64,000 nucleotides of DNA from Neolewinella litorea. GTDB lineage: Bacteria > Bacteroidota > Bacteroidia > Chitinophagales > Saprospiraceae. The translations under genes were made by a program, and so were the position numbers. The notes below the pieces were generated by a model. It saw only the letters and a program-made list of their open reading frames with translations. It was not told where the DNA came from and ran no database searches. Shown one piece after another: positions 38,297-41,240 of the stretch. Position 1 is the stretch's first letter; every line of letters starts with the position of its first letter. Location: NCBI RefSeq assembly GCF_004803465.1, contig NZ_SRSF01000001.1:434501-498500 (forward strand), in the 5' to 3' direction.

Positions 38297-40618
38297 ATGT
38301 CCTTATTGGCTATCGCCTACAGTCACGAAGATCTCTCCACCGCCCAGCGCCTCGCCGGGGCCGTTGAGCCGCAGGTCGAGTTCGAACACTACTCCGCCGG
38401 CCGGGCCAACGAGGGCGAACTGCTTGTAGACTTGCTGCGCAAAAACCAGCTGCCGCTCGTCGTGCTGGTGAGCCACAATTTCCTGACCAACCCAAACTGC
38501 ATGCTGCGCGCGGCCGAGTGGCTGCAGACCGACCGCACCATCCTGCCCATCGTGGTGGACGGCCATCGCTATGATCCGGACCAGGACGAGGTTATCACCG
38601 AAACCACCACCCTGGCCGACCGCTCCGACATCACCCGCTACCTGAGCCTCTGGCAGGACCGCTACATCGAACTGCGGCGCGGTGGGGAGCACTACACGGA
38701 CGCCGTCGGACAGCACGCCTTCAAAAATTACCTCCGCAAGATCCGCGACACCAGCATCGGCGTGGAAGAGGTTATGGAACTGATCCTGGCGCGCCAGCCC
38801 ATTGAAGATGCGGAACTGCGGGCCACCGACTACGCACCCCTCTACCAAATGGCCGGCCAGCGCAAGCCCCTTCCCCAGGAATCTTCGGGGGCGGCAAGCG
38901 CGGGTGCCACACCTGAACCCCAAGTGCCGGCTTCCCCGGCACCACAACCCGCTCCCGCCCCCCAACCCGAACCCGAAGAAATGACCGATACCCTGCTCGA
39001 AGAATCCATCGAGGAACAACTCCAGGAGTGGATCTCCCGCGCCTGGAGAATGTCCGACGCCGGCGATACCGCCGGTGGACTGGAACTGCTGCACCTCTCC
39101 CTGGAAAACCACCCGGAGGAACTCGAACTGCACTACCAGTACGCGCTCATGCTCGCCCTGGCCGCTAACCGGCTGGCGGATGCGCGGGAGGAACTCGACG
39201 CCCTGCTGGACAACGACCCGCACTATCCCGATGCCCTGTTTCTCAGCGGCGAACTCTACAGCGCAGCGGGTGACCACCAGCGCGCGCGCGACGACTGGGA
39301 GCGGCTCGTGGACGTGCAGCCCGCCTACCCGGAAGTAAATCAGCGCCTGGGCTACTTGCTTGCCGATCATTTTCCGGGAGAGATTACCGAGGCCGTCGCC
39401 TACCTGCGTCGGGCCACCCACGAGAGCAGCGCCAGTGGAGAGCTGTTTTTCCGCTACGCCGAAGCGCTGGCCCAGATCCCCGGTAAGGAAAGAAAAGTGG
39501 TCAAAATGCTGGAGAAGGCCATTCAGCGCGATCCCGAACACGCCCCCGCCCACTACCGTCTGGCGGTAGCGCAATTCGACCAGGGTGATTTTCAGCAGGC
39601 CCGGAAGAACTACCTCCTTGCGGTCAGCCTGGAGCCGGCCTTCGACACCCCCGCCAATCGCCGCGCCTTCCAGGCCGCCGGTCGCCCAACTCCCGCTACC
39701 ACCGGAAATTCCGGCGTTGCTAATGAAGCCCTGGTGGCCCTGAAACAAAATATCGCCGACCTCGAAGCCATGCTCCTGGAGCAGAGCCGCCCGGCACCCG
39801 CGCCCGCCGCCCCGGAAAAACCCGGTTCCGGCAAAACGGTCTTTCTATCGGGAGCTACCTCCGGCATCGGATTGGCTACCGCGCGCCGCCTGGCCCGGGA
39901 AGGGTACCGCATCATCATTGCCGCCCGACGCACCGAAAGGTTGGATAAACTTGCCAGCGAACTACGCGATACGCACGGCACGGAGGTTCACCCCATTACG
40001 CTTGACGTGTCCCGCCGCGACCGGGTAGGGGAGACCGTAGAGGGGCTGCCCCCGGAGTGGGAAAACATTGATATCCTGATCAACAACGCCGGCAAGGCCA
40101 AGGGCTTCGACCCAATCCACGCCGGAGACCTCGACCACTGGGACGAGATGATCGACGTGAATTTGCGGGGACTCCTTTACGTCACCCGTGCCATCACCCC
40201 CGGCATGGTGGCCCGGGGCCGGGGCATGGTCATTAACGTGGCCAGCACCGCCGGCAAGGAAGTGTACCCCAACGGCAACGTGTACTGCGCCACGAAGCAC
40301 GCCGTCGACGCCCTGACCTACTCCATGCGTCTGGACCTGGTGAAGCACGGCATTCGGGTTGGACAAATTTGCCCCGCCCACGTGGAGGAGACCGAATTCG
40401 CCGTGGTACGCTTCGACGGCGACCGCGAGCGCGCCCGGATCTACGACGATTTTCAACCACTGCGGTCGGTTGACGTGGCCGAAGCGATCCACTTCATGGT
40501 CAGCCAGCCGCCCCACGTAAACATTATGGACGTGGTGCTGCAGGGCACCCAGCAGGCCAGTTCTACGGTCGTGGACCGTAGTGGTCGCGCCAAATTCGCC
40601 CCGGCGGAAGAAGAATAG
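38297..40618 (+). CDS. TIR-like / TPR / short-chain dehydrogenase fusion protein
   Basis: 773 aa from MSLLAIAYSHEDL; the frame opens 26 codons earlier without TIR-like sequence. Residues 1-150 resemble a TIR domain (AIAYSHEDLS, LVVLVSHNFLTNPNCM, ILPIVVDG). The glutamate usually found just after the NCM box is replaced (NCMLR; a Glu sits at 74), so NADase activity is uncertain. Residues about 195-228 are a proline-rich linker, 235-445 about five TPR-like helical pairs, 478-500 a short coiled coil. Residues about 512-755 are a classical SDR: SGATSGIGLA, NNAG, S650, Y663 and K667. The next gene, tmk, starts 1 nt after its stop. Function unknown. Confidence 0.85.
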   Translation: MSLLAIAYSHEDLSTAQRLAGAVEPQVEFEHYSAGRANEGELLVDLLRKNQLPLVVLVSHNFLTNPNCMLRAAEWLQTDRTILPIVVDGHRYDPDQDEVITETTTLADRSDITRYLSLWQDRYIELRRGGEHYTDAVGQHAFKNYLRKIRDTSIGVEEVMELILARQPIEDAELRATDYAPLYQMAGQRKPLPQESSGAASAGATPEPQVPASPAPQPAPAPQPEPEEMTDTLLEESIEEQLQEWISRAWRMSDAGDTAGGLELLHLSLENHPEELELHYQYALMLALAANRLADAREELDALLDNDPHYPDALFLSGELYSAAGDHQRARDDWERLVDVQPAYPEVNQRLGYLLADHFPGEITEAVAYLRRATHESSASGELFFRYAEALAQIPGKERKVVKMLEKAIQRDPEHAPAHYRLAVAQFDQGDFQQARKNYLLAVSLEPAFDTPANRRAFQAAGRPTPATTGNSGVANEALVALKQNIADLEAMLLEQSRPAPAPAAPEKPGSGKTVFLSGATSGIGLATARRLAREGYRIIIAARRTERLDKLASELRDTHGTEVHPITLDVSRRDRVGETVEGLPPEWENIDILINNAGKAKGFDPIHAGDLDHWDEMIDVNLRGLLYVTRAITPGMVARGRGMVINVASTAGKEVYPNGNVYCATKHAVDALTYSMRLDLVKHGIRVGQICPAHVEETEFAVVRFDGDRERARIYDDFQPLRSVDVAEAIHFMVSQPPHVNIMDVVLQGTQQASSTVVDRSGRAKFAPAEEE

Positions 40619-40619
40619 T

Positions 40620-41240
40620 ATGTCACGTCCCCTGTTCATCGTAATTGAAGGTCTGGACGGCAGCGGCAAGACCACCCAGCTCGAAATGCTCCGCGACTAC
40701 CTGCAGTCCCGCGGCGAGTCATGTCGCCTCACCGCCGAACCGACGGACCTGCCCACCGGTCGGCTCATCCGCAGCATCCTGCAAAAGGAGATCTCCGTCG
40801 ACCCCCGAACGCTGGCTGCGCTTTTTGCGGCCGACCGCGTCGAGCACATTTTCCACCCGGAATCCGGCATACTGGATCTACTGGCCGCCGGTCACCACGT
40901 GATCGCTAGCCGGTATTACTTCAGCAGCCTGGCGTACCAAAGTGAGTTTGTCGATCCCGGCTGGATCGCCGCGCTGAACCGGCAGGCCAAGACCGCCTTG
41001 CCCGCCGACCTGACCATCTTCCTCGATCTGGAACCCACCGAAAGTATGCAGCGTATTGCCGGGCGCAACGGTGAGGACGAACTTTACGAAACCCTGGAAA
41101 AGCTGACGCACGTCCGAGAAAGCTTTCTTGCCGCCTTCTCCGTATTCGGGGAAGGGGAGAACATCCAATACGTAGACGCCGGCCAGCCAGTGGTGGCCGT
41201 AGCCGATGCCATTATCGAGCACGTGGAAGCGTTGCGTTAA
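40620..41240 (+). CDS. tmk: Thymidylate kinase
   Basis: 206-aa dTMP kinase. Start MSRPLFIVIEGLDGSGKTTQ carries the P-loop; an ATG 13 codons upstream lies inside the preceding gene. Other TMK features are AEPTDLPTG, FAADRVEH, and the SRYYFSSLAYQ substrate loop (DRY-like with Ser replacing Asp), then the lid RIAGRNGEDELYET. It phosphorylates dTMP for DNA synthesis. One base separates it from the TIR-SDR stop, so expression is coupled. Confidence 0.92.
   Translation: MSRPLFIVIEGLDGSGKTTQLEMLRDYLQSRGESCRLTAEPTDLPTGRLIRSILQKEISVDPRTLAALFAADRVEHIFHPESGILDLLAAGHHVIASRYYFSSLAYQSEFVDPGWIAALNRQAKTALPADLTIFLDLEPTESMQRIAGRNGEDELYETLEKLTHVRESFLAAFSVFGEGENIQYVDAGQPVVAVADAIIEHVEALR

Follow-up and report, generated by a model that had tools for sequence, protein, structure and literature searches.

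A TIR-TPR-SDR fusion protein of the Saprospiraceae whose TIR domain lacks the NADase glutamate

Bacterial TIR domains have mostly been studied as NAD+-cutting defence effectors, and the presence of one in the same open frame as an SDR enzyme raises the question of what a TIR does on such a partner. The gene lies in a window of 64,000 nucleotides from Neolewinella litorea (contig NZ_SRSF01000001.1, positions 434,501 to 498,500), in which an initial annotation had read TIR-like, TPR and SDR parts in one protein and had offered two explanations, a link between NAD+ turnover and a redox reaction or a TIR used only as a scaffold. The TIR-TPR-SDR order within a single frame is confirmed, and the features are as follows.

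38297..40618, + strand: fused TIR-TPR-SDR gene of the Neolewinella litorea window, a single frame
38297..38848, + strand: TIR-fold domain, residues 1-184; R71 (38507-38509) replaces the NADase glutamate
38849..39007, + strand: Pro/Ala/Glu-rich disordered linker, residues 185-237; low pLDDT at 194-235
39008..39682, + strand: TPR solenoid, residues 238-462; Pfam TPR models, helices with pLDDT mostly >90
39716..39784, + strand: lone helix, residues 474-496, linking TPR and SDR in the predicted structure
39830..40588, + strand: classical SDR domain, residues 512-764, with N622, S650, Y663 and K667
40620..41240, + strand: thymidylate kinase gene, 1 base past the fused gene's stop

The window protein matches TPR models above cut-off and has the corresponding helical hairpins, and the lone helix that follows them may be a coiled coil. 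The full-length predicted model has a pTM of 0.37, too low to place the domains relative to each other, and a Foldseek search with it returned SDRs only among the 50 matches listed. An antisense frame of 481 aa (window 38303-39748, - strand) lies opposite the TIR-TPR part and is taken for a codon-bias shadow in GC-rich DNA.

The spread of the gene was followed in the Saprospiraceae (hereafter the family) by searching 298 genomes with the TIR part of the window protein (E <= 0.001). Matches are present in 151 of these genomes, some of which may be other than the fused gene, and the named relatives are Neolewinella, Lewinella and Saprospiraceae records; the nearest relative of the window's genome is Neolewinella marina, with a protein 81% identical. 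A search with the whole protein gave 27 loci, with a full-length match in 15 (L039-L053) and the SDR or TPR part alone in 12. When the 15 full-length loci and 40 picked from the TIR matches are taken together as a set of 55, the three-domain order that the initial annotation had proposed to look for in other genomes is present in one frame in 53, the exceptions being L090 and L092, neither with an in-frame SDR. That the frame is an assembly artefact fusing two genes is rejected, since the same frame is kept in other genomes; the joined gene is old and has been retained within the family. A TIR profile matches 31 genomes of an order sample of 198 (six of them outside the family) and 14 of a phylum sample of 395 (11 of them outside the family); the proteins from six of those 17 outside-family genomes were inspected with Pfam and none showed an SDR (for L146, among the best 25 of 60 families).

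The assignment of the TIR part rests on a predicted TIR fold for residues 1-184 together with significant profile similarity, for which the best PDB match is MyD88 (3e-6), and the concern that residues 1-150 might not adopt this fold is thus not borne out by the predicted model. The window protein by itself reaches only E 0.037 against TIR_2, Foldseek with the TIR model found nothing at E <= 0.001 and the TIR likeness emerged on a second look, and phmmer with the single TIR sequence found nothing useful in the PDB (best E 0.75, V-ATPase subunit F). The glutamate of the C-helix motif by which TIR NADases are recognised is absent, as had been noted at the outset: the window protein has R71, and position 71 is Glu in only one of 55 aligned members, whereas all 10 related TIRs taken from other proteins have Glu there, including four encoded in genomes of this family. 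According to PMC11374754, the NADase activity of most bacterial TIRs needs this glutamate, and on these sequence grounds NAD+ cleavage by the TIR part is unlikely.

The TIR part is nonetheless constrained. Its dN/dS of 0.06-0.22 (five computable pairs), compared with 0.25-0.48 in the linker, shows at the level of sequence that it is under purifying selection. Conservation is highest in the helix starting at W119 and not at the NADase site, and the BB loop has a mean top-residue frequency of 0.30. In an alignment of 56 fused-type TIR rows W119 is invariant, Y115 occurs in 54, R127 in 53, Y123 in 50 and R/K150 in 55; R127, Y123 and R/K150 are not kept residues in the ten other TIRs (position 150 is K in three of the ten), and the fused type has gained them. 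A branch with support 100/99 separates all 56 rows from the ten other TIRs, which fits a single TIR capture and a later loss of the glutamate, with the order of these events the presumed one. Constraint would also be expected if the TIR were still catalytic through other residues, with NAD+ turnover and redox chemistry linked in one chain, and the window protein does have a glutamate, E74, three residues off the usual site. Position 74 is Glu in only 13/55 members, however, so that E74 is rejected as a substitute catalytic glutamate, and with Glu almost absent from the usual position too, and that residue needed by most bacterial TIR NADases, we regard retained catalysis as very improbable.

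The SDR part, by contrast with the TIR, retains its active site. It is a classical SDR with a match to adh_short at 4.6e-53, a Rossmann GxxxGxG motif (G519/G523/G525), NNAG (N596/N597) and the tetrad N622, S650, Y663 and K667; the tetrad is kept in 53/53 SDR-bearing members, bar one Y->F, and the description of the SDR as complete therefore stands. The closest solved relatives are serine/3-hydroxy-acid dehydrogenases (E 1e-49 to 1e-55), of which PDB 3asv and 3rku are described as NADP+ enzymes. The Arg-Arg pair after beta-2 is kept (R544 in 53/55, R545 in 52/55), and since such a pair denotes NADP(H) preference in SDRs by the usual rule, the cofactor is probably NADP(H). The domain scores 219.4 bits against the YdfG equivalog NF007829, below its curated cut-off of 411. 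The substrate is probably a small hydroxy acid or the corresponding semialdehyde. With the NADase glutamate missing in 54/55 members and an SDR that reads as NADP(H)-dependent, the suggested coupling of NAD+ turnover to a redox reaction is unsupported, and the evidence favours the scaffold alternative.

These data also bear on a metabolite sensor, in which the glutamate-less TIR pocket would bind NAD+, NADP+ or ADP-ribose and set SDR activity through the TPRs. The TIR pockets of relatives bind NAD+, and the TIR is both constrained and held in one chain with the SDR in 53/55 loci, as a sensor would be; yet the NADase site and the BB loop are not the best-conserved parts, and a linker that varies from 17 to 370 aa across the 55 aligned members speaks against a rigid allosteric joint. 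We consider a sensor unlikely, though worth keeping in mind.

A close SDR (E <= 1e-55) is present in 244/298 family genomes, and among the 150 SDR matches listed, which are ranked by similarity, 96 frames are >=690 aa, 47 are <300 aa and seven lie in between; at least one of the short frames (L164) ends at a contig end. In a class sample 194/247 genomes have an SDR match (E <= 1e-45), and among the matches listed there no SDR frame outside the family exceeds 493 aa. For these reasons the SDR is an ordinary, widespread Bacteroidia gene of the YdfG/serine-dehydrogenase type, and the TIR-TPR part is a feature of the family.

Upstream of the fused gene and on the same strand, in 35/37 TIR-bearing loci outside the Neolewinella type (within 280 bases in 34), is a gene, c1, for a protein of ~445 aa with a redoxin/AhpC-TSA domain after a lipoprotein-like signal; in the example at L070:9630-10955 (-) the long N-terminal part is without a Pfam match. 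Often c1 is itself preceded by a sodium:dicarboxylate symporter gene and by c2 (L070:11062-11586 (-) and relatives), which codes for ~175 aa with no Pfam family and lies upstream of c1 in many family genomes. Of 20 loci picked as stand-alone SDRs, 17 have c1 as their immediate upstream neighbour in the same orientation; the remaining three are L152, L163 and L164, the last cut by a contig end. In the Neolewinella type thymidylate kinase lies downstream of the fused gene (the window and 18/18 loci); a c1 homologue (51%) is located elsewhere in the window's genome, and a search there for c2, run without a positive control, found nothing. Because the stand-alone SDR sits behind c1, as the fused gene does elsewhere, the TIR-TPR module was attached to a resident SDR and has probably been lost from it often. 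The family SDRs form one group in the SDR tree (100/99), which is poorly resolved, with 35/81 inner branches open and the bootstrap not settled; the fused label changes nine times on it, a count that cannot tell gain from loss and that includes L164 labelled as stand-alone, although this locus is cut by the contig end and should not count.

The two exceptional loci show the parts separately. At L092:6408-8908 (-) the TIR-TPR (562 aa) and SDR (268 aa) parts are separate adjoining genes with 8 bases between them, and at L090:7197-9716 (-) a TIR-TPR protein of 840 aa without SDR lies behind c1, in a genome with no SDR match at E <= 1e-55. Together with the common stand-alone SDRs, these loci would suit a neutral merger of neighbouring genes, after which the TIR-TPR part kept an unrelated task of its own. 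Against such a merger, one chain is kept in 53/55 loci over many genera, though one stop and one start would split it, and we rate a neutral merger improbable.

The account that we put forward, at about even chances, is that the TIR-TPR module is a non-cutting assembly or targeting platform for a metabolic SDR and not a phage defence. A resident cytoplasmic SDR would carry the module at its N-terminus in this family; the TIR would most likely serve, like adaptor TIRs, as a surface for interaction or self-assembly without enzymatic activity, and TIR and TPRs would bring the SDR into a complex or act as a switch on it. The linker, since its length varies so widely, would act as a tether more than as a rigid switch. 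Two observations count against a platform: the L090 genome has the module and no SDR match, so that TIR-TPR can be useful without the enzyme, and the stand-alone SDRs show that the enzyme manages without the module. More tentatively, and at somewhat under even chances, the NADase-dead TIR may have been domesticated in this one family to serve a core NADP(H)-dependent metabolic enzyme as its assembly or regulatory half, possibly in stimulus-dependent filaments or clusters.

A role in conflict, with TPRs that sense, a TIR that assembles and an SDR effector that depletes NADPH or yields a toxic product, has precedent in the glutamate-bearing TIR-TPR proteins elsewhere in the phylum (L137, L144 and L145), and TIR-TPR proteins are often assigned to conflict systems (PMC7159879). 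The fused protein nevertheless matches none of the PADLOC TIR-system models (Thoeris, CBASS TIR, TIR-APAZ), and at E <= 1 only weak Csx21 and PrimPol models (TPR-region and primase-type) match, outside the TIR part. Its neighbours are housekeeping genes (of ten run through PADLOC, thymidylate kinase alone matched), in agreement with the initial annotation that this is not a typical TIR defence protein; the family-wide spread with constant neighbours over many genera, and an SDR that is ordinary and occurs alone outside the family, also argue against conflict. We think such a role improbable, and favour a TIR-TPR scaffold that would have no part in defence. One genome that has the fused gene also encodes, at L142:3864-5060 (+), an EAD11 effector-associated domain joined to a glutamate-bearing TIR.

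A literature search for the TIR-TPR-SDR architecture found no report, with most subscription journals outside its coverage. Each part is already known by itself, in TIR-TPR proteins, dead adaptor TIRs and SDRs; their fusion, its retention across the family and the dead site together form a new combination. If the domestication of the TIR is true, this would be a non-immune, non-NADase use of TIR in bacteria. A glutamate-less TIR kept family-wide on a metabolic enzyme is a natural experiment on non-cutting TIR function, with the same gene order holding the enzyme with and without a conserved TIR, and the question can be tested directly in relatives with only the enzyme, only the module (L090) or the two as separate genes (L092).

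Among known systems, the YdfG/serine dehydrogenases (3asu/3asv of E. coli, 3rku of yeast YMR226C and 2nwq of P. aeruginosa) are the closest solved relatives of the SDR and share its NADP-type Arg-Arg and catalytic residues, but are stand-alone enzymes. The bacterial TIR NADases (AbTir, TcpB/BtpA, BtTir and TIR-APAZ) differ in having the glutamate that the fused TIR is missing. The TIR-TPR proteins of other Bacteroidota (L137, L144 and L145) begin, as the fused protein does, with a TIR of this subtype that carries the invariant W, and have TPRs after it; unlike the fused protein they retain the NADase glutamate and are without an SDR. The adaptor TIRs MyD88 and TIRAP likewise have a TIR fold that needs no catalytic glutamate, and although they are eukaryotic immune adaptors, whereas the fused TIR comes from a bacterium and sits on an enzyme, the two may share a way of working.
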